Below, in pieces: positions 2,177 to 13,645 of a stretch of 64,000 bases of DNA (within the stretch, counting starts at the first letter, position 1; every line of letters begins with the position of its first letter). Origin of the DNA: Lentzea tibetensis (GTDB lineage Bacteria > Actinomycetota > Actinomycetes > Mycobacteriales > Pseudonocardiaceae); contig NZ_VOBR01000005.1 in the NCBI RefSeq assembly GCF_007845675.1, forward strand, positions 232,429-296,428, in the 5' to 3' direction. A model generated the notes under the pieces. The model was given only the letters and a program-made list of their open reading frames with translations, searched no databases and was not told the origin of the DNA. The position numbers were made by a program, and so were the translations under genes.

Positions 2177-2635
2177 CTACTCGGCTCGTTCGCCGGGTTC
2201 CGGGATGTACTTCTTCAGCAACGGATTCGCCACCCGTGCCATCACGTATATCCACAGGCAGGCGAACACCAGTGTCAGGAACCCACCGAGGCCCTGATAG
2301 GGGCGCTCCGGTGCAAGCGCACCGCGTCTGAATCCGGTGCCGGCCACGTCCTTGCCGATGAGCTCGGGCTTGAGAAATCCTCGCGCCGTCGCGGTCACGA
2401 CGTTGCCGTTCACCTTGTTCTTGACCGTCGCCCGGCAGTCGTACCAGTACCCGAAGCCGCGCAGGGCCACCGGGCCGTGCCGCACGCAGGACTGCGCCGT
2501 GATGACGTGGCTCGCTTCGCTCAGGTCGTCGGTCTCGGCGATGTCCCAGAAGTGGATGAAGATCGTCGCACCGATCAGGTACCCGAGAGCGGGGATGATC
2601 AGGAAAGCGAAGAACCTGTGCAGCACGATCCTCAT
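2177..2635 (-). CDS. Small membrane protein, last gene of ESX-associated cassette
   Basis: A 152-residue protein with one hydrophobic segment near the N terminus (FFAFLIIPALGYLIGATIFI) and a second near the C terminus (LGGFLTLVFACLWIYVMA). The central outer part has two cysteines (QSCVRHGP and YWYDCRATV) that could form a disulfide. It resembles uncharacterised actinobacterial membrane proteins of the DUF6346 type. ATG at 2635 overlaps the stop of the preceding WXG-like gene by four bases, so the two are translationally coupled. Its position suggests a membrane partner for the secreted-type proteins upstream; this is inference from position. Confidence 0.7.
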   Translation of the reverse strand: MRIVLHRFFAFLIIPALGYLIGATIFIHFWDIAETDDLSEASHVITAQSCVRHGPVALRGFGYWYDCRATVKNKVNGNVVTATARGFLKPELIGKDVAGTGFRRGALAPERPYQGLGGFLTLVFACLWIYVMARVANPLLKKYIPEPGERAE

Positions 2636-3708
2636 TCGCCGCGTGCTTCCTTCCGCTTCTCCTCCTGCTTCTCCGCTTCCTCCGCCCGCAGGTCCCGCCA
2701 CGTCCGCCAGCCACCCCCGTCCTTGGCCTTGTCCTCCCAGTCCCGGAACTTGGTGGACTCCTTGGTCGCCTCGATGCCCAGCTTGGGCAGGAAGTCGGCT
2801 GGCGTGCTCTTGATGCCGTCGACGGCCACCTTCTTCGCCTCGCCCAACGCGTCCTTCGCCATGCCGCTCCAGGAGAAGTCGGCCACGCGACGGGCGTTGT
2901 CGGCCTCGATGCTCTTCTTGAGGACATCGACGAAGTTGTCGCCGCCCTTGGACAGCGCGGTCTTGGCGTTGACCAGGATGTCGTCGAGCTTCTTGAACAA
3001 CCTGCTCGCGTTGCTGAACGCCTTGGTCAGCTTGCGGCAGAACTCCAGCGCCTTGTTGGCCCACTTGATCGCGGTCGGCACGCACTCCGCGACAGCGCCC
3101 GCGATGCCCGCGCCGAACGCGGCGACCGCAGGCGCCCAGCGCAGGCAGATCGCGATCAGCTTGCCGATCGCCTCGGCGATGATGTCCCGAACGATGTCCC
3201 GGACGACCTTGAGGACGATCTTGCACGTCCTGACCAGGCCCGCGATACCTCCGGCCGCGGTGGCGACACCGGCGTAGGTGTCGGCCCGGTCGGCGCCGAA
3301 CGCCCGGTACTGCTCGCTGTCCTTGCCCGACCACGCCGAACTGTCGTTCTCGACCCAGTTCCGAAGATCGTCGGCGGTCTCCTTCAGGTAGCCGGACACG
3401 GCCTCCCAGGTCTTCGCCATGCCATCCAGGGCCTCCTGGTCGCCGACGAGCCAGTCGAGCGGCTCACGCAGGAAGTCGACGTGCTCGATCAGCCAGCCGA
3501 AGCCCGCGCTGAGCAGGCCGGCCATCGGATCGGCGAGGAAGCCCGCGGCACCGGCGACCGTCGCGCCAGCGTTGATCAGGCCCTCGGCCCAGTTGCCGTC
3601 CGAGAAGCCCTTCACCGTCTCGGTGGCGTCGTGGAAGATCCCCGCCCCCTCGGTGGCCGCTGTCTCCTCGCCCGTGTTGACCAGGTAGTTCGTCCCGGGG
3701 TTGGTCAT
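2632..3708 (-). CDS. WXG100-like, ESX-associated large protein
   Basis: A 358-residue protein. Around residues 110-150 it has a helix, a turn containing WSGKDSEQYRA and a second helix, which is the helix-turn-helix hairpin of WXG100/ESX substrates. A Gly/Ala-rich hydrophobic stretch follows (VRDIIAEAIGKLIAICLRWAPAVAAFGAGIAGA), then a highly charged helical C terminus ending in EKQEEKRKEARGE. There is no recognisable C-terminal toxin domain. ATG at 3708 overlaps the EspC-like gene by four bases. Layout and family resemblance point to a type VII secretion-related role, with no core ESX machinery in the window. Confidence 0.7.
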   Translation of the reverse strand: MTNPGTNYLVNTGEETAATEGAGIFHDATETVKGFSDGNWAEGLINAGATVAGAAGFLADPMAGLLSAGFGWLIEHVDFLREPLDWLVGDQEALDGMAKTWEAVSGYLKETADDLRNWVENDSSAWSGKDSEQYRAFGADRADTYAGVATAAGGIAGLVRTCKIVLKVVRDIVRDIIAEAIGKLIAICLRWAPAVAAFGAGIAGAVAECVPTAIKWANKALEFCRKLTKAFSNASRLFKKLDDILVNAKTALSKGGDNFVDVLKKSIEADNARRVADFSWSGMAKDALGEAKKVAVDGIKSTPADFLPKLGIEATKESTKFRDWEDKAKDGGGWRTWRDLRAEEAEKQEEKRKEARGE

Positions 3709-4007
3709 TGGTCGTGCATCCCGTCGAAGATGTCCGACTGCGCCTGCTCGTGCTCCTCGACGTGCCGGCGCCACTCGTCGAACCGCTTCACGTGATCCAC
3801 CGCGGCGTCCGAGGCCTGGCGCATCGTGTCCAGCGCCGTGTTCTGCGCGGCGGTGCAGATGGCCGCCAGCGGGAATCCGAGCTTGCCGAACGCATCCAGG
3901 TTGGTGACGGCCTGCCCGGCACTCAGAGCCCTGTTCACCTGCTCGTCCACGTTGTTGAGCTTCATCGCGTGGGCCTGCATCTCGACCAGGTCGATTCGAT
4001 AGTTCAT
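3705..4007 (-). CDS. EspC-like ESX secretion-associated protein
   Basis: A 100-residue, mostly helical protein that begins MNYRIDLVEMQAHAMKLNNV and has the size and helical pattern of the EspC/ESX-1 secretion-associated family. These proteins usually sit next to a WXG-type partner and a YbaB-like protein, as here. It overlaps both neighbours by four bases, so the cassette is tightly coupled. No signal peptide is present, as expected for type VII substrates. Secretion itself cannot be shown from the sequence. Confidence 0.75.
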   Translation of the reverse strand: MNYRIDLVEMQAHAMKLNNVDEQVNRALSAGQAVTNLDAFGKLGFPLAAICTAAQNTALDTMRQASDAAVDHVKRFDEWRRHVEEHEQAQSDIFDGMHDQ

Positions 4008-4516
4008 CGCAGGAACCCGCCGTTGCCGAAGTCCTCGTCATCGTCCTGCGGCCGCGCTGGTCGCTGCGGACGCGGAGGCGGAGGCGGCACGTCGTCCTCG
4101 ATCGCACCGAACTGCGGGCCGGCCCCGTACCCGCCGCCACCCGGCACGTACTGCGGCGGAGGCGGCGGCTGAGCGCTGCGCAGCTTGTCCATCATGAAGT
4201 GCATCGCCTCGGAGTCGTCACCACCCAGCACCGGCGACATGGCCTCCTGCACGGCGCTGGCCACGCGGCTCTGCGCGGCCTGCACCACGCGCAACACGTC
4301 CTGCCCGACGGCGTCACCGTCCTTGCGCTGCAACGCACTGCCGAGCTTCAGGTCGACGAGGTTGCCCGCGTCGTTGACCGTGACGGTGATCTGCCCGTCC
4401 GCGCTGCGCTCGGTGACGCGCAGGTTCGCCAAGCTCTCCTTGATCGCCTCGCTCTTGCGCTGCGCCTCAGCCAACTTCCCCTCGTACTGGCTGAGGATCT
4501 GGTCCGGATCGGTCAT
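4004..4516 (-). CDS. YbaB/EbfC family DNA-binding-type protein
   Basis: A 170-residue protein. Residues 1-95 match the YbaB/EbfC fold, with a long N-terminal helix (QILSQYEGKLAEAQRKSEAIKESL), a beta hairpin (GQITVTVNDAGNLVDLKL) and a second helix (VLRVVQAAQSRVASAVQEAM). The tail is Pro/Gly-rich and acidic (QPPPPPQYVPGGGG, then QDDDEDFGNGG), an extension common in actinobacterial YbaB-like proteins coded beside ESX-type genes. It is the first gene of the four-gene cassette. Its promoter should lie in the 164 bases shared with the divergent DUF2075 gene. Confidence 0.85.
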   Translation of the reverse strand: MTDPDQILSQYEGKLAEAQRKSEAIKESLANLRVTERSADGQITVTVNDAGNLVDLKLGSALQRKDGDAVGQDVLRVVQAAQSRVASAVQEAMSPVLGGDDSEAMHFMMDKLRSAQPPPPPQYVPGGGGYGAGPQFGAIEDDVPPPPPRPQRPARPQDDDEDFGNGGFLR

Positions 4517-4657: not shown

Positions 4658-4680
4658 ATTGGGCAAGCATGGGGGATCTG

Positions 4681-6534
4681 GTGCCACTCGTACGAGGCAG
4701 AGCGGCGACTCTGCTGCAGGAGTCACGGCAGGAGAAGCTGCAGGCACGTGTGGGGCAGGCGTACTGCGCCGCCCACTTCAGGCCCGTCAACGCGCGTGAG
4801 TTCCGCTCCTGGCGGCACAGCCTGAGGGCTTTGCTGGAGGCCTTGCACGAGGCGGGGCTGGGTGACACCGAAGTGCTGCTGGAGCACTCGCTGCCGCGCT
4901 CGTCCCTGCGCGTCGACGCCATCGCGTGCGGGTACAACCCGGAAACCCGTCGTCCGTCCTACGTGTTCATCGAACTGAAGCAGTGGACCGAGTTGCACTC
5001 CGTCGAGGCAGGTCTCGTCCGGCTGAACAGCGGTGACGAGCTGAGGGCTCACCCGGCGGACCAGGTGCGCGACTACTGCCGCTACGTGCGCCACTCGATC
5101 CAGCTGGTGGCCGAGGACGAGAAGCTCGTCAGCGGTCTCGCCTACCTGCACAACGCGGACCGGCGGAACGCGAGGCTGCTCCTGGACCACCCGGCCGACC
5201 ACTGGGGCCGGATCTACACCGGCGAGGACCTGCCCGCGTTCCTCCAGCAGTTGAACCTGCTGCTCGATCGGAACAGGACGCACGACGAGAACGCGGCAGC
5301 GGCAGACCGGTTCCTCAAGTATCCGGCGAGGCCGTCGGCGCAGTTCATCGAGATCGCTCACGACGCTCTCCGCAAGCGCGAGCTGCTGCCGCTGGTGGAC
5401 CAGCAGCGAGTCGCCTACAAGCGGATCGAACAGGCTTTGAAGGCGGCGAACGAAGGCACCCGCAAGACGGTCGTGATCGTCGTCGGCGGGCCCGGTTCCG
5501 GCAAGAGCGCAATCGCGGTGAGCCTGCTGAGCGAGCTCGAGGAGCTGGACATGCGCGGGTACCACGCAACCGGCTCCAGGTCGTTCACCGAGACGTTGCG
5601 GCGCCACCTCGACCCGGATCGCACCGGGGTCCGGCACATCTTCAAGTACAACAACGACTTCCGGGACAACCGGAACCACGGCGTGGACATCATCATCAGC
5701 GACGAGGCACATCGGCTGCGCCGGTCGAGCACCCCGTCGGGCTCGAAGAGGAGCAACGCCAAGGCCGAGCCCCAGATCAAGGAGCTGATCACAGCGGCGC
5801 GTGTGCCAGTCTTCCTCCTCGACGAGAACCAGCGCGTGCGCGCGGACGAGGTCGGGTCCGTCGCCGAGATCAGCAGGATCGCCGGCGAGCTCGGCTGCGA
5901 GGTCGAGGTGATCAACCTGCGCGGTCAGTTCCGTTGCGGCGGTAGCGACGCGTTCGACCGGTGGGTCGACTGCCTGCTCGGGATCGTCGAGGAACCACCC
6001 GTCACCTGGTCCAGTCTGGACTCCGGCGGCAGGTTCGAGGTGCACGTCGGCAATGACCCGCGCGACATGGAGAAATGGCTGGGATCCCACCGGGGCGACA
6101 CGGGAACTGCCCGGATGTCCGCCGGGTTCTGCTGGGACTGGCCGTACGACCACCGTTCGGAAACACCAGACATCGTGATCGGCGACTGGAAGCGGTGGTG
6201 GAACCTCCGCAAGCCAGCGGCGGACGGTCCCGAGTCGACCTACTGGGCCACGGACCCGAGAGGCGCGCGCCAGGTCGGGTGCGTCTACACCGCGCAGGGT
6301 TTCGAGTACGACTGGGCGGGTGTGATCTTCGGGTCGGACCTGGTCTGGCGCACGGACAAGTGGGTGGCTCAGTCAGCCGAGTCCCGCGACTACAAGGCCA
6401 AGGAAGATTCGCGGTTGTTCCCCGAACTCGTGCGCAACGCGTACCGGGTGTTGCTGACCAGGGGAATGCGCGGAGTCACCATGTTCTCGGTCGACCCGGA
6501 GACGCAGAGCCACCTCCGGGCGATGGCCGGTTGA
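4681..6534 (+). CDS. PD-(D/E)XK nuclease-DUF2075 helicase fusion, copy 1
   Basis: A 617-residue protein. N-terminal residues 60-105 contain RVDA (D79) and YVFIELKQ (E98-L-K100), the D...ExK signature of PD-(D/E)XK nucleases. A superfamily 1 type NTPase of the DUF2075 group follows: Walker A GGPGSGKSA (269-277), Walker B IIISDEAHR (337-345), DENQ (381-384), and near the end YTAQGFEYDWAGVIFG and LLTRGMRG, which look like helicase motifs V and VI. GTG at 4681 is preferred over ATG at 4669 because GGGGG lies five bases upstream and because the start then aligns exactly with that of the paralogue downstream. Predicted to be a nucleic acid translocase/nuclease. A defence role is inferred from the neighbouring Wadjet genes. 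Confidence 0.85.
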   Translation: MPLVRGRAATLLQESRQEKLQARVGQAYCAAHFRPVNAREFRSWRHSLRALLEALHEAGLGDTEVLLEHSLPRSSLRVDAIACGYNPETRRPSYVFIELKQWTELHSVEAGLVRLNSGDELRAHPADQVRDYCRYVRHSIQLVAEDEKLVSGLAYLHNADRRNARLLLDHPADHWGRIYTGEDLPAFLQQLNLLLDRNRTHDENAAAADRFLKYPARPSAQFIEIAHDALRKRELLPLVDQQRVAYKRIEQALKAANEGTRKTVVIVVGGPGSGKSAIAVSLLSELEELDMRGYHATGSRSFTETLRRHLDPDRTGVRHIFKYNNDFRDNRNHGVDIIISDEAHRLRRSSTPSGSKRSNAKAEPQIKELITAARVPVFLLDENQRVRADEVGSVAEISRIAGELGCEVEVINLRGQFRCGGSDAFDRWVDCLLGIVEEPPVTWSSLDSGGRFEVHVGNDPRDMEKWLGSHRGDTGTARMSAGFCWDWPYDHRSETPDIVIGDWKRWWNLRKPAADGPESTYWATDPRGARQVGCVYTAQGFEYDWAGVIFGSDLVWRTDKWVAQSAESRDYKAKEDSRLFPELVRNAYRVLLTRGMRGVTMFSVDPETQSHLRAMAG

Positions 6535-6659
6535 TCGGCCAGAAGATCGGCTAACCTCGGGAACGCGGCCCGACGGACACCGAGCGTGACCGGATCCGGC
6601 ACCTCGTCGCTGCCCCCACCCGCATGTGGATTCCGCATGCTCGAAGTAGGGGAACACCA

Positions 6660-8549
6660 TTGGCTCTCGTCCGCCAAAGCGCCCGGTCACTGCTCGTTGA
6701 CGCCAACGCGGGCAAGCTGCACACCCTGCTCGCCGAACAGGCGCGGATCCAGTACCAGGCAGGTGTGGGCGATGGCGAGGTGCGCTCCTGGCAGAACAGT
6801 CTGCCCGCGTTCCTCGACGACGTCGTCGATGCTGGTCTCGGCCACGTCGAGGTGCTGCTCGAGCACAAACTCCCGCACAGTCCGAAGCGCGTGGACGTGG
6901 TTCTGTGCGGAACTCACCCGAAGCACCGGCGCCCGACGTACGTGCTGGTGGAGCTGAAGCAGTGGTCGAAGGCCGAGTCGTTCGGCGACGGGCTCGTGCG
7001 AGTCGACCAGTACGCCCAACCGGTGCTGCACCCGGTCGAGCAGGTGCGCAGGTACTGCGAGTACCTGGTGGACTCGACACCGTCGCTCGCTGAACAGCCC
7101 GGATCGGTGCACGGGGTCGCGTACCTGCACAACGCACGCGAGGCCGGTGTCTGGAACATCTCGCAGTACACGATGGACGACTACGGACGGCTGTTCACGC
7201 TGGACACCAAGGGACAACTGGTCGACCGGCTGCGGTCGCTCCTCGACACCGATCCGTCGAAGCGGGACGAGTCGCGGAATGCCGCGGACGAGTTCCTGGC
7301 GATGCGTCACGCTCCGACGAAGCCATTGCTGTCCGCCGCGGCGAAGGAAATCCAGGAACGAGAGCAGTTCGTTCTGCTGGACGAGCAGCAGGTCGCGTAC
7401 AGCCTGGTCAAACAGGCCGTGCACCGAGCGCGTGTGGCGCGCACGCAGACAGTGGTGATCGTGCTCGGTGGTCCGGGCTCAGGCAAGAGCGTGATCGCGC
7501 TGAGCCTGCTCGGAGACCTGGCGCGTGGCGGACATCCGGTCTTTCACGCAACGGGTTCCAGCTCGTTCACGAACACGATGCGCAAACACGCCGGTAGGCG
7601 GAATCCCCGTGTGCAGACGATGTTCAAGTACTTCAACAACTTCATCGACGCCGGGCACCGCGACCTCAAGGTGCTGATCTGCGATGAAGCCCACCGCATC
7701 AGGGAGACCAGCCTCAACCGCTACACGAAGCGCGAGGTGCGTGAGCGAGCGAGGAGGCAGATCGAGGAACTGATCGACGCCGCCGACGTGCCGGTGTTCC
7801 TGCTGGACGAGAACCAGACCGTGCGGCCAGGCGAGATGGGGTCGTTGGACGAGATCAGCCAGGCGGCGACGGCCGCGGGCTGCCAGGTCGAGGTCGTGCA
7901 CCTCGGCGGGCAGTTCCGCTGCGGCGGCTCGGAGTTCTTCGACGACTGGGTCGCCAGGTTGCTCGGACTGAGGAGGCAACCGGCCACTTGGTCGGCGCTG
8001 GTGACCCGCACTGACGACGAGTTCGTCGTGCGGAGTGCCGAGTCGCCGCGGGAGATGGAGTCGTGGTTGCTCTCGCAGCAGGCGAAGCACGACGGCACCG
8101 CCCGCATCGCGGCCGGGTACTGCTGGCGGTGGAGCGATCCGGTCACCGAGGAGGGCACGAAGGTGCTGGTCCCGGATGTGCGGATCGGCGAATGGCATCG
8201 ACCGTGGAACGCCAAGCCGGAGAAACGGGTGCCGGACGCTCCGGCGTCGCACTTCTGGGCGAGCGACGATCGCGGGTTCGGCCAGGTCGGCTGCATCTAC
8301 ACCGCCCAGGGCTTCGAGTACGACTGGGCTGGTGTCATCTTCGGCAACGACTTCGTCTGGCGCCGTGACCACTGGGTCGCCCGGCGCGAGCACTCCCACG
8401 ACCCCGCGGTGAAGAAGGCCGACGAGCTCCACTTCGCCCGCCTGATCCGCAACACCTACAAGGTGCTGCTCACTCGGGGTATGCGCGGGGTGTGCGTGTA
8501 CTCCGAAGATCCGGAGACCCAGGACCACCTCCGCACAATGGCCCAGTAG
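6660..8549 (+). CDS. PD-(D/E)XK nuclease-DUF2075 helicase fusion, copy 2
   Basis: A 629-residue paralogue of the gene just upstream, alike over its whole length (about half identical by eye). Nuclease residues D79 and E98-L-K100 fall at the same positions. Walker A is GGPGSGKS (270-277), Walker B VLICDEAHR, then LLDENQTVRPGE, YTAQGFEYDWAGVIFG and LLTRGMRG. TTG at 6660 is chosen because AGGGG lies 7 bases upstream and the start aligns with copy 1; ATG at 6624 is in frame but lacks a ribosome binding site. Only 125 bases separate it from copy 1. Both copies keep all motifs, so the duplication looks functional and diverged, not decaying. Confidence 0.85.
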   Translation: MALVRQSARSLLVDANAGKLHTLLAEQARIQYQAGVGDGEVRSWQNSLPAFLDDVVDAGLGHVEVLLEHKLPHSPKRVDVVLCGTHPKHRRPTYVLVELKQWSKAESFGDGLVRVDQYAQPVLHPVEQVRRYCEYLVDSTPSLAEQPGSVHGVAYLHNAREAGVWNISQYTMDDYGRLFTLDTKGQLVDRLRSLLDTDPSKRDESRNAADEFLAMRHAPTKPLLSAAAKEIQEREQFVLLDEQQVAYSLVKQAVHRARVARTQTVVIVLGGPGSGKSVIALSLLGDLARGGHPVFHATGSSSFTNTMRKHAGRRNPRVQTMFKYFNNFIDAGHRDLKVLICDEAHRIRETSLNRYTKREVRERARRQIEELIDAADVPVFLLDENQTVRPGEMGSLDEISQAATAAGCQVEVVHLGGQFRCGGSEFFDDWVARLLGLRRQPATWSALVTRTDDEFVVRSAESPREMESWLLSQQAKHDGTARIAAGYCWRWSDPVTEEGTKVLVPDVRIGEWHRPWNAKPEKRVPDAPASHFWASDDRGFGQVGCIYTAQGFEYDWAGVIFGNDFVWRRDHWVARREHSHDPAVKKADELHFARLIRNTYKVLLTRGMRGVCVYSEDPETQDHLRTMAQ

Positions 8550-8588: not shown

Positions 8589-8637
8589 TTGAACTGACCG
8601 GCGCGACAGCTACGGTGTGCCCGAAGGAGGTGGTCAG
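8589..8637 (+). promoter_or_regulatory. Promoter and strong ribosome binding site for the jet genes
   Basis: TTGAAC at 8589-8594 and TACGGT at 8611-8616 are separated by 16 bases and form a plausible SigA-type promoter. AAGGAGG at 8624-8630 lies 7 bases before GTG at 8638. Together they indicate that the shortened jetA reading frame is expressed as it stands. Confidence 0.5.
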
Positions 8638-9201
8638 GTGACCGAACACGAGCAGCCGGACACTGCGGCCGCCTTCAGGCACCTCGCCCGCCGGTTCGCC
8701 GCCGCCGCGACGGACGCCCAGGCGCACGAGCTGTTCAGCGCCGCGTTCGGCCTCCAACCGGCCCGGCACGCCCACCTCACGCACATCGACGACGAGCTCA
8801 TCTCCAGCGCCCGCAGCTGGGCCGAGGCACCGCCGGTGAAAGTGCCGCCGCACCTGCGGAAGATCGACAAGGACTACCTCGGCACCGTCGGCAAGGTGCG
8901 CGACGTCGAGCCGCTCCGGAGAAAGCGGAAAGCCGACGAACGCCGCGAGTTGACCGATTCCGGCCCGATCAGGATCTCCACGCTGGGGCAGCTCGACGAC
9001 GACACGCTCCGCGAGCTGCTCGACGTCATCGGGCGGGCGCTGGGCAACAAGCCGGACGACACCGGTACGAGAACGGCAGTCCACGGACACGTGGAGGTCA
9101 GTCTGCGCGTCGCGGGTGGGGTGGCCACCATCGAGACCCCGAGCGGCACGTTCACCGGGCCCGACTTCCTGATCGACGTGCGCAGGAGCGGTGAACGGTG
9201 A
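8638..9201 (+). CDS. JetA-like protein, C-terminal part only (Wadjet type I)
   Basis: A 187-residue protein resembling only the C-terminal part of the TIGR02677 family (JetA, the kleisin-like subunit of type I Wadjet), which is normally about 490 residues. Recognisable segments are HLARRFAAAATDAQAHELFSAAFGLQPARH, WAEAPPVKVPPHLRK and the closing TPSGTFTGPDFLIDV. About 300 N-terminal residues are absent, and the 88 bases to the upstream DUF2075 gene leave no room for them. The fragment nevertheless has its own promoter-like sequence, a strong Shine-Dalgarno and an open frame, and its stop overlaps the jetB start (GTGA). It may be a retained functional domain or a recent truncation. Confidence 0.7.
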   Translation: MTEHEQPDTAAAFRHLARRFAAAATDAQAHELFSAAFGLQPARHAHLTHIDDELISSARSWAEAPPVKVPPHLRKIDKDYLGTVGKVRDVEPLRRKRKADERRELTDSGPIRISTLGQLDDDTLRELLDVIGRALGNKPDDTGTRTAVHGHVEVSLRVAGGVATIETPSGTFTGPDFLIDVRRSGER

Positions 9202-10085
9202 TCTCCCGCGGCATCCGGCTGCTGCTCGGCACCCCGCTGCTGACCGCCCGTGACGAAGGGTTCGACCTGGTCACGAGGCATCGCGACGCGATCGCCAAGT
9301 GGTTCGACGACCACTGCGGCTGGCCGTTGCACGTCGAACGCGAGTACGTGCGGCTGGTCAAGGCCGGCCAGCGGACCAGCCGAGGGTCGTTCGACCGGCG
9401 GCGCTACACGCTGCTCTGCCTGGTGTGCGCGGAGCTGCTGGCCGCCCCCGTGACGACCGCCGAGCTGCTGCGCGAACGCATCACGCGGCCCGTCGACGGG
9501 ATCCCGCCGTTCGACCCGGCGCGGAACGACGAGCGTGCGGCGTTCGAGGACGTGCTCGAGTTCCTCGAACAGCGGGGCGTGCTCGCCGGCACGGGCAAGT
9601 ACCGGGTCGACCGGACACTGGTCAGACGTCTCATCGAACCGTCAACGACAGAAACGAAGCACGAAGTCATGCGCAGGCTGGTGGACGAACCCGTTGTGTA
9701 CAAAGAAGATCTCACGCCCGAACAACGGAGCTACCTGAAGCAGCCCGCCGTCCGCCGAGGCGTCGAGCAGGCGGGATTCGTCCTGGAGGAACGCGAGGAG
9801 GGCTTTCTCCTCGTCGACCCCGACGGCCTCGCCACGGACGCGAAGTTCCCGCACGACGACACCATCGTGGCGCTCGCACTCCTGGACCGGCTCGTGCAGG
9901 GCCCGGCGACCCACGAGGAGTTGGACGCGACGACGCAGGACCTGCGGGCCAAGTACAAGGTCCTCCGGTCCGAACCAGGAGAGCTGACGCAGGACGGGCT
10001 CGACGTGCTGGTGGCCTTCGGGCTGGCCGAGCAGGACGACACCAGGGCACGTGCGCTGCCCGCAGCCGCGAGATACAGACGATGA
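9198..10085 (+). CDS. jetB: JetB-like protein (TIGR02678, Wadjet type I)
   Basis: A 295-residue protein matching the TIGR02678 family. Diagnostic segments are LLGTPLLTARDEGFDLVTRHRDAIAKWF, FDRRRYTLLCLVCAELL, VDRTLVRRLI, MRRLVDEPVVYKEDLTPEQRSYL and a winged-helix-like C-terminal half. Family members are usually about 370-400 residues; here the loops between the GW.L segment and RRYTLLCL and before the DEPVVY block are short. GTG at 9198 overlaps the jetA stop, and the stop overlaps jetC (ATGA), so the three genes form one translation-coupled operon. In known systems JetB bridges kleisin and the SMC-like ATPase. Confidence 0.8.
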   Translation: MISRGIRLLLGTPLLTARDEGFDLVTRHRDAIAKWFDDHCGWPLHVEREYVRLVKAGQRTSRGSFDRRRYTLLCLVCAELLAAPVTTAELLRERITRPVDGIPPFDPARNDERAAFEDVLEFLEQRGVLAGTGKYRVDRTLVRRLIEPSTTETKHEVMRRLVDEPVVYKEDLTPEQRSYLKQPAVRRGVEQAGFVLEEREEGFLLVDPDGLATDAKFPHDDTIVALALLDRLVQGPATHEELDATTQDLRAKYKVLRSEPGELTQDGLDVLVAFGLAEQDDTRARALPAAARYRR

Positions 10086-13000
10086 CGAGATGGCGACCGA
10101 GCCGCGCCGGAGTCCTCAACGTCTGGCGCTTCCACGACGAGACGTTCACGTTCCACGACGGCCGTCTGCTGTTGAGGGGGCCGAACGGCTCGGGGAAGTC
10201 CAAGGCGCTCGAGCTGCTCGTGCCGTACCTGCTCGACGCGGAGCCGCCGGGCGCGATGCACTGGAACCTCATGGGCGAGGGCGGTGACGGCGTCCGCGCC
10301 GGGTACGCGTGGCTGGAGTTCCAGCGCGACGACGAGTGGTTCACCTGCGGCGTGCGGCTGCAGGCGTCGACGAACACCACGGACGTCCAGGCGAGCTACT
10401 TCACGACCGGTCAGCGCATCGGCGACCTGCTGCTGGTGAACGACGTGCGGCGGCCGCTCACGCGGGTGAACCTGGCCCGAGCCATCGGTGACCGCGGCGA
10501 GGTGCACGGCTCGCCCGCCGGCTACCGCGCGGCGGTGCGCACCACCCTGTTCGCCGGGATGAGCGAGCAGCACTACGAGTCGCTGGTCACCGCGTTGCGA
10601 CAGGCGCGTCGCCCCGATCCGAACGTCCTCGCAGGCGTCATGCCGCCCGTCGATCACCACGACGTCGGTGAGAGCTTCGAACGCCTTGCGCGGCAACGGG
10701 AGAAGCTCCGGTCACTGGAGGACGCGCTCGAGGTGACCGAGACGCTCGTCCATCGGCAGCGCGACTACGCCCAGCGCGTCCTCAGCGCCGCACAGGCGAG
10801 GCTGACGGCGACCGAGCGCCAGGCCGGCCCGGCTGACGAAACCGACCAGCAGCACCGGGAACAGCTGGTCGAGGTCACCGGCGCGGAACAACGGCTCGCC
10901 CACGAGGCGACCGAGATCGACGCACAGCTCAACGGGACGCAGCGGCTCGACGAGCTCAAGGAGCAGGCGGCCGCGGCGCGCACGCGAACCGAGAACGCCG
11001 CGAAGCACGCAGCCCAGCTCCGCGCACGCGCCGACGAGGACGCCGAACTGGCGGCGAACGCCGCCACAGCCGCGGAAAACGCGCGAGCAGCCGCTGGAAC
11101 CGCGGCGGAGCAAGCACGGGAGACCGCGCGACGAGCAGACATGTCATCGGTCTTCGAGAACCTCGAGCAGAACGATGACCGACAGCTGCTCAGCGCGGCC
11201 GTCGACGCCCGCGTCAAACAGCTGACCCAGGTGCGGAAAGCGCTTGTGCAGCAAGAGATCCTCCAAGAGACCCGTGACCGGGCACAGGCCCGGCTCGACC
11301 GGGAGCGCGCGGACCTCGCACTGGCCGAGGCCGCGGAAACCCAGGCGGCGCAAGCACACGAGGCGGCTCGCGCGAAGCTGGACGACGACCTCGCCGGGTG
11401 GGCGCTGCGCTGCCGCGAGCTGGTCGTCCTCGAGCCCACCGCGCCGCTCGCGATCAGCGAGGCCGTCTCACGGGTACGCGAGGAGCTCGGCCTCGCGGAG
11501 GTGCGGCTCGACGAGAGCAGGCAGGCCGCGGCCGACCGGCTCGCGCAGTACACGGTGCTGCGCAAGAAGCTGGCCAAGCAGATCGTGCCGCCGCCCGCGC
11601 CGTACACGCGCGAGGCGGACCGCGCCGCGATGACGGGCGGACCGCTGTGGCACCTCGTCGAGTTCCGACCGCACATGCCGCTCAACCTCTGCGCCGCGGT
11701 CGAGGCCGCGCTGGAGGCGTCCGGGCTGCTCGACGCGTGGGTCACGCCGGACGGCTCGCTCGACCACGACACGTTCGCCGAGCAGGAGCTGGCCTCGCCG
11801 GCACCGGGCGCCAGCCTGCTCGACGTGCTCGTGCCGGAGGGCCACGCGGTGCACCAGCTGCTGGCGGGCATCGCCTTCGGTGAGACCGCACCCGACCACG
11901 CCGCCGCGATCGGCGCGGACGGCACCTGGCGGCTCGGCAGCCTGCGCGGACGCTGGGCCAAGGCCGAACCGACCTACATCGGTGTCGACGCTCGCGAGCT
12001 GGCCGCGCAACGCCGCGTCGCCGAGCTGTCGACGTTCATCGACAAGCTCCACCAGGACATCGGCGAGCTCGACGAGTCCCGGCAGCGGATCACGGCGAGG
12101 CGCGAGGCGCTGGCGAGCGAGCTCGCCGACCAACCCGGCCGCGGCCCCGTGGACGAGGCAAGCGCACTCCTGATCGAGGCGCAGGCACGATGCGCTGTCC
12201 TCCGCGACGCCGTCTCCAGGGCTGAGCACCATCGCGACGACGCGGCATCCCAAGCGGTGCACGACACCGCGGTGTCCGAACACGAGCTCGACGACGTGCT
12301 CGACGCGGTCAGCGCGTTCCGCGCGGCCGGGGACCGGTGGCTGGACGAACGGCGCGCGGCAGGCGTCGCGGAACTCGCCGCCACCACCGCCAGGAGCCGG
12401 GCGACGACCAGTCGCGAGCACGCCGACGACGCCGAGCGGGCCGCGACGGCGCACGCGCAGGAGGAAGAGGAGCTCGGCGCCGCGATCGGGAGCGCGATCG
12501 ACCGCGACCAGCTGAGCGCCCGCAAGCAGGAGATCGAGACCGAGCTCCAGGACGTGCGCGGACAGCGCAGCACCCTCGAGCGCGTGGTCGGCGCCCTGGA
12601 GGAGAAGCGCAAGGCCGACGCGGAGGCCCATCGGGAGGCGGCCGAGGCCGACGCACGACTCCAGCACCTCATGAGCGGCCCGCTGGCCGAGTACGTGCGA
12701 CTCGACGCGACTCCACGCGAGCCGCTGTCCATCGCCGACGCGGAACGGCGGCTGGCCAACGCGGTGCAGGACGCTCGGCTGCTGCTGTCCAGCCGCGTCC
12801 AGCTGGCGCTGGAGCCCGACGAGGACGTCACCGTGCTGACGGCGACGCTCGACTGGAAGCCGCTGAGCCTCGCGGCGCTCGTCGAGTTCTCCCGTGACCA
12901 GCGCGATCGGATGAGCGAGCAGGTCGTGGCCGGTGAACGTGAGCTGGCCGACCGGACGCTGACCCCGGACATCCGCGGCCAGATCGCGGAACGGATCCAG

Positions 13001-13645
13001 GCCGCCGACGAGCTGGTCGACCTCGTGAACCAGCGACTCGAGCGGGTGCGCACCGCCTCGAAGCTCCGCGTCCGGCTCGCGTTGCAGGTCGATCCCCAGG
13101 CCTCGCAGGCGCGTGACCTGCTGACCAAGGACCCCCTGACCGACGCGGAACGCGAGGTGCTGCACCGGTTCTTCCGCGAACGCCTGGACGAGCTCCGCAC
13201 CGCGGGCACGGAGCAGCAGCTCGCGCACGTGCTGGACTACCCGGCGTGGCACCGGTTCGTCGTGCAGGTCGACCGCGGCGACGGCTGGCAGCCGCTCACG
13301 AAGCGGACGCACCGCGCGCTCTCGGCCGGCGAGAAGGCTCTGGTACGGCACCTGTCCCACGTCGCCGTCACCGCGGCGCACTACCAGGCCGCACCGGACG
13401 GACCGCGGCTCATCGCGCTGGACGACGTCTTCGCCGCGGTGGACCACGCGAACCGCGCCCGGTTGCTGGAGCTGCTCGTCGCGTTCGACGTGGACCCCGT
13501 GCTGACCTCGGACGACGAGTGGTGCGCCTACCGCGAGCTACCCGGTATCGCGATCCACCAGCTCATCACCGGACCCGACGACGACGCGGTCACGACCGTG
13601 CGCTTCACCTGGGACGGCGACAGCGTCACCCCCGGCGGATCCTGA
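10082..13645 (+). CDS. jetC: JetC-like SMC-family ATPase (TIGR02680, Wadjet type I)
   Basis: An SMC-like protein of 1187 residues. The ATPase head has Walker A GPNGSGKS (33-40). The C-terminal half-head has the signature LSAGEKALVRHLS and Walker B LIALDDVFAAVD. Between them lie long Ala/Glu/Arg-rich coiled coils with a central hinge region (GGPLWHLVEFRPHM...). The N-terminal RPSRAGVLNVWRFHDETFTFHDGRLLLRGPNGSGKS matches the TIGR02680 family, and the length is somewhat below the usual roughly 1350. No jetD (TIGR02679 nuclease with Toprim-type domain) follows: the next gene is a methyltransferase on the opposite strand, overlapping by 20 bases. The motor looks intact while the usual nuclease subunit is missing. 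Confidence 0.85.
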   Translation: MTRWRPSRAGVLNVWRFHDETFTFHDGRLLLRGPNGSGKSKALELLVPYLLDAEPPGAMHWNLMGEGGDGVRAGYAWLEFQRDDEWFTCGVRLQASTNTTDVQASYFTTGQRIGDLLLVNDVRRPLTRVNLARAIGDRGEVHGSPAGYRAAVRTTLFAGMSEQHYESLVTALRQARRPDPNVLAGVMPPVDHHDVGESFERLARQREKLRSLEDALEVTETLVHRQRDYAQRVLSAAQARLTATERQAGPADETDQQHREQLVEVTGAEQRLAHEATEIDAQLNGTQRLDELKEQAAAARTRTENAAKHAAQLRARADEDAELAANAATAAENARAAAGTAAEQARETARRADMSSVFENLEQNDDRQLLSAAVDARVKQLTQVRKALVQQEILQETRDRAQARLDRERADLALAEAAETQAAQAHEAARAKLDDDLAGWALRCRELVVLEPTAPLAISEAVSRVREELGLAEVRLDESRQAAADRLAQYTVLRKKLAKQIVPPPAPYTREADRAAMTGGPLWHLVEFRPHMPLNLCAAVEAALEASGLLDAWVTPDGSLDHDTFAEQELASPAPGASLLDVLVPEGHAVHQLLAGIAFGETAPDHAAAIGADGTWRLGSLRGRWAKAEPTYIGVDARELAAQRRVAELSTFIDKLHQDIGELDESRQRITARREALASELADQPGRGPVDEASALLIEAQARCAVLRDAVSRAEHHRDDAASQAVHDTAVSEHELDDVLDAVSAFRAAGDRWLDERRAAGVAELAATTARSRATTSREHADDAERAATAHAQEEEELGAAIGSAIDRDQLSARKQEIETELQDVRGQRSTLERVVGALEEKRKADAEAHREAAEADARLQHLMSGPLAEYVRLDATPREPLSIADAERRLANAVQDARLLLSSRVQLALEPDEDVTVLTATLDWKPLSLAALVEFSRDQRDRMSEQVVAGERELADRTLTPDIRGQIAERIQAADELVDLVNQRLERVRTASKLRVRLALQVDPQASQARDLLTKDPLTDAEREVLHRFFRERLDELRTAGTEQQLAHVLDYPAWHRFVVQVDRGDGWQPLTKRTHRALSAGEKALVRHLSHVAVTAAHYQAAPDGPRLIALDDVFAAVDHANRARLLELLVAFDVDPVLTSDDEWCAYRELPGIAIHQLITGPDDDAVTTVRFTWDGDSVTPGGS

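Follow-up and report, generated by a model that had tools for sequence, protein, structure and literature searches.

The DNA considered here is a 64,000-nucleotide stretch of the Lentzea tibetensis genome (the window), part of contig C55 of a 9.36-Mb genome labelled G000, and carries the core genes jetA, jetB and jetC of a type I Wadjet system without the nuclease gene jetD. The original prediction made for this DNA, of a type I Wadjet locus lacking JetD, stands as regards the three core genes and the missing jetD, but has to be amended in that the window jetA encodes only the C-terminal 40% of the kleisin. The features of the locus are as follows, with G165 denoting the genome of a sister species.

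8608..8617, + strand: start context of the ancestral full-length jetA (agctacgGTG), out of frame with the present jetA
8624..8632, + strand: Shine-Dalgarno sequence AAGGAGGTG of the shortened jetA, read from the sequence, with AGGAGGTG at the matching place in G165
8638..9201, + strand: jetA, reduced kleisin, C-terminal part only, 187 amino acids (TIGR02677 positions 299-494)
9198..10085, + strand: jetB, KITE subunit, 295 amino acids, shortened (TIGR02678 above its cut-off; alignment)
10082..13645, + strand: jetC, SMC ATPase, 1187 amino acids (TIGR02680 above its cut-off; alignment; tree)
10178..10204, + strand: Walker A motif of JetC, GPNGSGKSK, intact (alignment)
13319..13336, + strand: signature motif of JetC, LSAGEK in place of LSGGEK (alignment with 33 intact close relatives)
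13409..13426, + strand: Walker B motif of JetC, LIALDD, with Asp at the position of the catalytic Glu (Asp also in G165)
13514..13516, + strand: Asp replacing the His of SDHEW in JetC, giving SDDEW (Ser in G165, Arg in the distant JetC1)

As predicted, the three genes overlap, with GTGA shared by jetA and jetB and ATGA by jetB and jetC, so that 8638-13645 is a run of three coupled genes. JetB (168.6 bits, cut-off 124.65) and JetC (668.5 bits, cut-off 462.85) both scored above the thresholds of their type I families, while all three proteins also matched the PADLOC models for JetA, JetB and JetC, and the E-values of the Jet family matches, 1e-35 to 1e-200, were far beyond chance. A scan for the sigma-70 consensus returned no promoter, a negative that says little in an actinomycete. 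Directly 3' of jetC lies a methyltransferase gene on the minus strand, the end of which falls inside the last 20 bases of jetC.

JetA spanned only positions 299-494 of the 494 in TIGR02677 and scored 123.5 bits, below the cut-off of 165.85. The 23 full-length copies of this gene in Lentzea (jetA', the prime marking this system) are 457-472 amino acids long as called, and the N-terminal 60% of the kleisin, about 287 residues, is gone from the window copy. The deletion opens just 3' of the retained agctacgGTG context; of the 23 full-length genes, 15 have agctacg ahead of the start, seven a variant differing at 1-2 bases, and one another sequence. The best-supported start of the present gene is the GTG at 8638 behind AAGGAGGTG, rather than a locus start at 8589 as first proposed. 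None of the 23 full-length genes has such a Shine-Dalgarno sequence 20 bases or less from its called start. Both reduced copies, those of the window and G165, show the old agctacgGTG, then AGGAGGTG, then a new GTG 23 or 25 bases on (25 in G165), and G165, a separate assembly, has the same deletion site, Shine-Dalgarno sequence and coupled starts, so that an assembly error is unlikely. A split kleisin with its N-terminus encoded elsewhere was also rejected, as a search for that part gave no match in G000; in G165 it gave one weak match (E 0.65) on another contig. An AF2 model of the short JetA had a mean predicted local distance difference test score (pLDDT) of 76 and a predicted template modelling score (pTM) of 0.44, and in Foldseek matched the type II Wadjet JetA structures 9qe1 and 9qe0 (E about 1e-6, probability 1.00, global superposition poor), the E. 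coli type I JetA (8as8) coming only at rank 33 (E 1.8).

In the known systems, according to PMC10586767, the kleisin N-terminus links two JetABC motors and an N-terminal motif of JetB serves as a contact for JetD. This motor-pairing element is absent from the window copy and, by profile coverage, present in 23 of 25 Lentzea genomes; JetB of the window lacks about 14 N-terminal residues in the alignment.

The original prediction had the JetC ATPase keeping its motifs, which is true of Walker A only. LSGGEK, LDE and SDHEW were retained in all 33 aligned rows of intact close relatives (a set excluding three JetC1 paralogues and the broken copy of G156), and all three are altered in the window, which thus has neither the canonical signature nor the Walker B Glu. 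More distant JetCs of Lentzea vary too, JetC1 having ASGGER and SEREW, and the JetC of a second Wadjet on contig C18 having LSSGET. Since these vary in the signature or the His but keep the Glu, the change from Glu to Asp is the telling one and the strongest sign that JetC catalysis may be altered.

No jetD lies beside jetABC in the window, and a search of the 4 kb after jetC with five JetD queries gave no remnant (best E 0.09); this search covered 25 Lentzea loci, two of gene order D-A-B-C and five from Amycolatopsis. Genome-wide profile searches of G000, proposed earlier as a check for a jetD elsewhere, returned no match to PF09983 (JetD_C), and to TIGR02679 only that of the C18 Wadjet, which sits in an operon of its own and has lost its TOPRIM Glu.

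Looking downstream, as the original prediction did, correctly located the methyltransferase but was insufficient, as relatives also carry jetD 5' of jetA. Every one of the 25 Lentzea genomes, that of the window among them, had an orthologue of JetC', and jetABC' was full-length in 22, had a broken jetC' in G156, and was reduced in G000 and G165. An intact jetD beside jetABC' was absent from 21 of the 25. It lies just 5' of jetA' in the remaining four (G007, G123, G155 and G160), where it closes an upstream jetABC1D operon; remnants occupy the same place in six (G153, G156, G159, G163, G164 and G167), and none was seen in 15. The JetD at this position is 52-65% identical to JetDs that 12 genomes outside Lentzea carry 3' of their JetABC1-type operons, and therefore belongs to the tandem neighbor, leaving JetABC' itself without a JetD; that it serves as the own JetD of JetABC' in those four genomes was rejected on identity and gene order. 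Most Lentzea species have lost this neighbor. In the four tandem loci (L071 of G160, L073 of G155, L034 of G123 and L035 of G007), seven Jet genes stand in a row, A1-B1-C1-D1-A'-B'-C', with one JetD, and a mixed complex of two different motors is conceivable. Fragments of the lost first Jet set remain in several Lentzea species.

Because the JetD-less state spans Lentzea and no remnant follows jetC within 4 kb, a simple recent deletion of jetD was rejected, and the comparison with close relatives called for by the original prediction points instead to an old, genus-wide condition. An rpoB tree of 24 of the 25 genomes (G163 gave no rpoB match) placed G000 and G165 as sisters with a support of 1.0. 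In the JetC tree, Lentzea JetC' stood beside Actinophytocola and Saccharopolyspora (94/97), its nearest relatives, in which JetD follows JetC (split in two frames in Saccharopolyspora), while the JetD-less loci of five Amycolatopsis genomes stood beside a clade of D-A-B-C order (99/99). These separate positions indicate that JetD was lost at least twice.

A scan of named records with the window JetC kept 80 of 96 relatives, of which 73 were scored, the other seven either holding a second JetC (L176, L178, L184, L200 and L248) or lying at contig ends (L228 and L250). At least 70% of JetD was present in the expected places in 46, a class that includes L171 and L177, with remnants of an upstream JetD, and L190 and L240, with JetD in pieces. 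The other 27 (16 from Lentzea, nine from Amycolatopsis and two from Streptomyces) include L174, scored as lacking JetD though it holds a similar upstream remnant; L185 and L186 come from the same genome, as separate contigs. The Streptomyces loci, L235 (S. fulvorobeus) and L244 (S. cavernae), showed no JetD match in the fetched flanks and fell outside both JetD-less clades; JetA is split in L244. Genes 3' of JetC in Amycolatopsis were discarded as replacement effectors, being inconsistent among the three loci read of five: two carry a BTAD/NB-ARC/TPR regulator there, the third a DUF222-HNH gene.

The second Wadjet of the genome has its JetD gene at 3330-4400 on the minus strand of G000:C18:148000-165000 (L039), within a diverged operon. 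The TOPRIM Glu of the ENP motif, conserved in all 31 different canonical JetDs (35 aligned rows), is Arg in eight and His in one of the nine Lentzea proteins of this type that were read, and Arg in a tenth (G140); the second Asp of the DFD motif is Thr or Ser in the first nine, and Thr in G000. We infer that the ENP position equals E236 of MksG, for which, in PMC10123090, Ala at either E236 or D279 (metal/Mg-binding) is reported to impair the nuclease drastically. Sequence searches of the PDB with the JetDs of G160 and C18 gave no match, and the TOPRIM residue was therefore placed by alignment alone. Outside Lentzea, we read 30 fetched loci of 78 matching genomes; in the 21 readable proteins the Glu was kept in 13 and changed in eight (G143, G032, G045, G136, G078, G119, G134 and G097), and two further matches missed the motif. 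Such JetDs without the Glu mark possible pseudo-nuclease Wadjets. The C18 JetC of G000 keeps LDE in its Walker B motif and, in the matched parts, is 33-36% identical to JetC of the window system, and a C18-type JetA was present in all 25 Lentzea genomes.

In G000, an SBP_bac_3 solute-binding-protein gene (L039 4738-6024, plus strand) separates jetC from jetD in the C18 system, on the opposite strand to them. The corresponding spacing in eight other Lentzea genomes is at most 20 bases in four, 0.6 kb in G162, and 1.4-2.5 kb in G083, G123 and G007, which suggests that the gap was filled differently or repeatedly. G165 differs from G000 in having a third Wadjet on its contig C1, where TIGR02679 is matched at 137 bits (G165:C1:380444-388820); additional Wadjets with diverged JetD matches of their own were also seen at G105:C27:436477-444486 and G153:C23:112420-121023.

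Selection on jetABC' was gauged by pairwise codon maximum-likelihood fits of omega to chosen pairs. In 12 full-length comparisons (four pairs, three genes), including the JetD-less pairs G140-G150 and G083-G105, omega was 0.04-0.11, and for the reduced pair G000-G165 it was 0.09 for jetA, 0.05 for jetB and 0.16 for jetC, with omega = 1 rejected in each (twice the log-likelihood difference, 2dlnL, 83.5, 95.2 and 295.8, respectively). These values are rough, since silent sites are near saturation. By region, the reduced pair's JetC gave 0.03 in the N-lobe, 0.13 in the hinge, 0.11 in the C-lobe and 0.24-0.39 in the coiled coils; in two intact pairs the C-lobe was much tighter, at 0.016-0.025. The six frames of both reduced copies are open across 38 internal alignment gaps in the three proteins, gaps that, counted on protein alignments, are in frame by construction, so that what counts is the absence of any broken frame. 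Codon-position GC of the reduced genes is still coding-like. As in MksBEF, an SMC, kleisin and KITE set is kept under selection without a nuclease across Lentzea, the window copy included. We read the record of the reduced jetABC as a probable change of role followed by renewed constraint.

Upstream of jetA, several further genes lie in the window.

571-1998, - strand: exonuclease candidate (RNase_T match), presumably of the DEDDh type, upstream of the Jet cluster
4669..6534, + strand: S1, a DUF2075/Schlafen-group-3 helicase, PD-(D/E)XK-like motif at its N-terminus (PF09848 E=6.5e-79; PADLOC PDC-S41 E=1.6e-21)
6624..8549, + strand: S2, a second DUF2075 nuclease-helicase-like gene (PF09848 E=8.1e-80)

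S2 ends 88 bases before the start of jetA. S1 and S2 are paralogues (47% identical) with a conserved D..ELK motif, in S2 a stretch RVDVV...ELKQW resembling a nuclease core that we take to be PD-(D/E)XK. The structure model of S2 matched the helicases RecD2 and SLFN14, and the Pfam NERD profile reached only E 0.036, so we infer nuclease activity of S2 from its motif. The exonuclease candidate was dropped as a substitute nuclease because it is no part of the operon and, in relatives as in the window, is encoded on the opposite strand; in 15 other Lentzea loci, an RNase_T exonuclease, some of the matches partial, lies 3' of jetC' on the opposite strand. A small minus-strand cluster at 2177-4516 includes a WXG100-like protein (PF25547 at 2632-3708), and, by eye, G140 and G165 have a comparable cluster, placed upstream of jetA' and of the reduced jetA, respectively.

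We give even odds that the locus is the core of a type I Wadjet whose nuclease disappeared long ago and which today acts on DNA without cleaving it; its most likely activity would be that of a nuclease-free SMC-KITE complex, MksBEF-like in origin, that holds DNA without cutting it. The sequences support a course in which the loss of JetD would date from before the Lentzea radiation or from its early part, with JetABC then maintained by purifying selection; in the branch leading to the window and its sister, the N-terminal ~287 residues of the kleisin would then have been deleted and a new ribosome-binding site would have arisen ahead of the shortened jetA, with all three genes apparently open and selected since. 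The JetC dimer, with hinge and N-lobe conserved, may dimerize by its hinge and still bind ATP and DNA, with JetB carried on the kleisin remnant. Since the kleisin N-terminus is missing, two motors probably cannot pair and the usual ring cannot close, and with Asp for the catalytic Glu, ATP would be bound but hydrolysed slowly. The expected outcome would be a single-motor, slow-cycling DNA clamp or tether that organizes or silences DNA without plasmid cleavage. More tentatively, and as a joint proposal that we think possible rather than probable, two or more steps would have produced a new SMC architecture under selection, with no nuclease, a kleisin cut back to its C-terminal part so that motors cannot pair, an open ring and an Asp ATPase, making it a single-motor DNA clamp of natural origin; cutting would then have been abandoned twice, independently, in Lentzea with the motors kept, in the JetD-less JetABC' and in the predicted dead JetD of C18.

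Several observations weigh against a working complex. The 33 intact relatives share 335 invariant JetC columns, of which the window copy has 81 altered or gapped and G165 has 136, while six intact controls departed at 0-13 of 335-348 such columns (most have kin in the set, which flatters them). In G165, JetC is also missing 39 residues where the C-terminal head lobe begins; these losses point to a probable loosening of constraint. Pairwise omega is an average, with silent sites near saturation, from which a recent loss of function could escape, and the cruder Nei-Gojobori (NG86) ratio was higher, with nonsynonymous (dN) and synonymous (dS) distances of 0.267 and 0.628 for jetA of the reduced pair (0.153/0.652 for G160-G105). 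The reduced form is also known from two genomes only. The main rival is accordingly a relic in slow decay, an option that the original prediction had included, in which the locus ceased to function once JetD and the kleisin N-terminus had gone, with the GC-richness of the genome keeping its frames open. It would account for those losses, for the altered signature, Walker B and SDHEW motifs of both reduced copies, and for their long JetC end branches (0.31 and 0.7, median 0.044), but it has to contend with a single shared origin before the two species split, with coupled starts and a Shine-Dalgarno sequence kept since, and with coding-like codon-position GC. The open frames across 38 indels and the omega of 0.05-0.16 make simple decay unlikely, and we do not favor it, although it keeps an appreciable part of our doubt.

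The remaining explanations give the reduced complex a partner. The idea that S1 and S2 are substitute effectors, cutting or unwinding what JetABC captures, drew some support from the distribution of S2 and from the conserved D..ELK motif. Eight of 25 Lentzea genomes, counting the window's, carry an S2 orthologue (79-83% identical), and none of these lies more than about 10 kb from the Jet cluster: six immediately precede jetA' on the same strand with tight spacing, that of G123 precedes jetA1, and that of G162 is 10 kb away. DUF2075 genes were likewise found in fetched flanks (up to 8 kb) of seven of the 27 loci without a near-complete JetD and none of the 46 with one, in two separate clades, including flanks of the JetD-less loci in two Amycolatopsis records; these loci are related, which inflates the Fisher p of 5e-4, and defence islands cluster anyway. 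The linkage is not constant, however, as 17 of 25 Lentzea lack the S2 orthologue, the sister species G165 lacks both S1 and S2, S2 of G123 adjoins a complete JetABCD, a 56% relative in G161 lies away from the Jet cluster, and in Amycolatopsis G015 two opposite-strand genes part the DUF2075 genes from jetA. S1 and S2 are old neighbors of jetABC, dispensable and no essential replacement for JetD, and an effector swap is doubtful. It is more doubtful still that the reduced complex acts as a regulator or decoy, modulating the C18 Wadjet or blocking plasmid or phage factors; the genus-wide C18-type JetA and the conserved hinge and N-lobe of the window copy would suit such a role, and the low identity between the JetCs of the two systems would not. 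That the C18 JetD acts in trans, so that the window JetABC still cuts plasmids, would be in keeping with its being the sole TIGR02679 match in the genome, but with Arg for its TOPRIM Glu, Thr for the second Asp of DFD, the effect of the MksG substitutions and a diverged operon of its own, we think this highly improbable.

Among known systems, type I Wadjet (JetABCD/MksBEFG/EptABCD) shares with the window homologous JetA, JetB and JetC, their order and coupled frames, and the Walker A motif, hinge and N-lobe; the window differs in lacking JetD and most of the kleisin, and in its signature and Walker B motifs. The nearest relative in the sample with an intact JetD is the JetABCD of Actinophytocola xanthii (G094), with equal gene order and a JetC 55-59% identical to Lentzea JetC', but with JetD kept 3' of jetC and proteins of 511 (JetA), 416 (JetB) and 1341 (JetC) amino acids. 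S1 and S2 belong with the DUF2075/Schlafen-group-3 helicases (PADLOC PDC-S41), linked to JetABC by adjacency only, and we know of no described Wadjet that includes such helicases. A precedent for a condensin-like complex without a nuclease is MksBEF of Pseudomonas aeruginosa (PMC10586767), likewise a retained and selected SMC-kleisin-KITE set, which the full-length Lentzea and Amycolatopsis copies fit; it differs in its independent origin, and the window copy lacks the kleisin N-terminus. The same paper calls the relationship of MukBEF/MksBEF to Wadjet unresolved and an origin from Wadjet 'tempting', and already holds the idea that MksBEF arose by loss of JetD. No paper on a JetD-less type I Wadjet in Lentzea or Amycolatopsis was found among open-access titles and the beginnings of abstracts, a scope with most subscription papers outside it; 'Wadjet' co-occurs with 'Lentzea' in one open-access paper, a Paenarthrobacter genome report, and with 'Amycolatopsis' in one, a Rhodococcus genome paper.

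Annotation as 'Wadjet' does not imply plasmid cutting, and the plasmid-defence system of a soil actinomycete may here be turning into a DNA handler that does not cut. Lentzea shows the steps side by side, namely an ABCD-A'B'C' tandem with a single JetD, a JetABC that stably lacks JetD, a kleisin in reduced form and a Wadjet whose nuclease is predicted to be dead. The transition can thus be tested directly in this genus, as can the question of what a loop-extruding SMC complex is able to spare.

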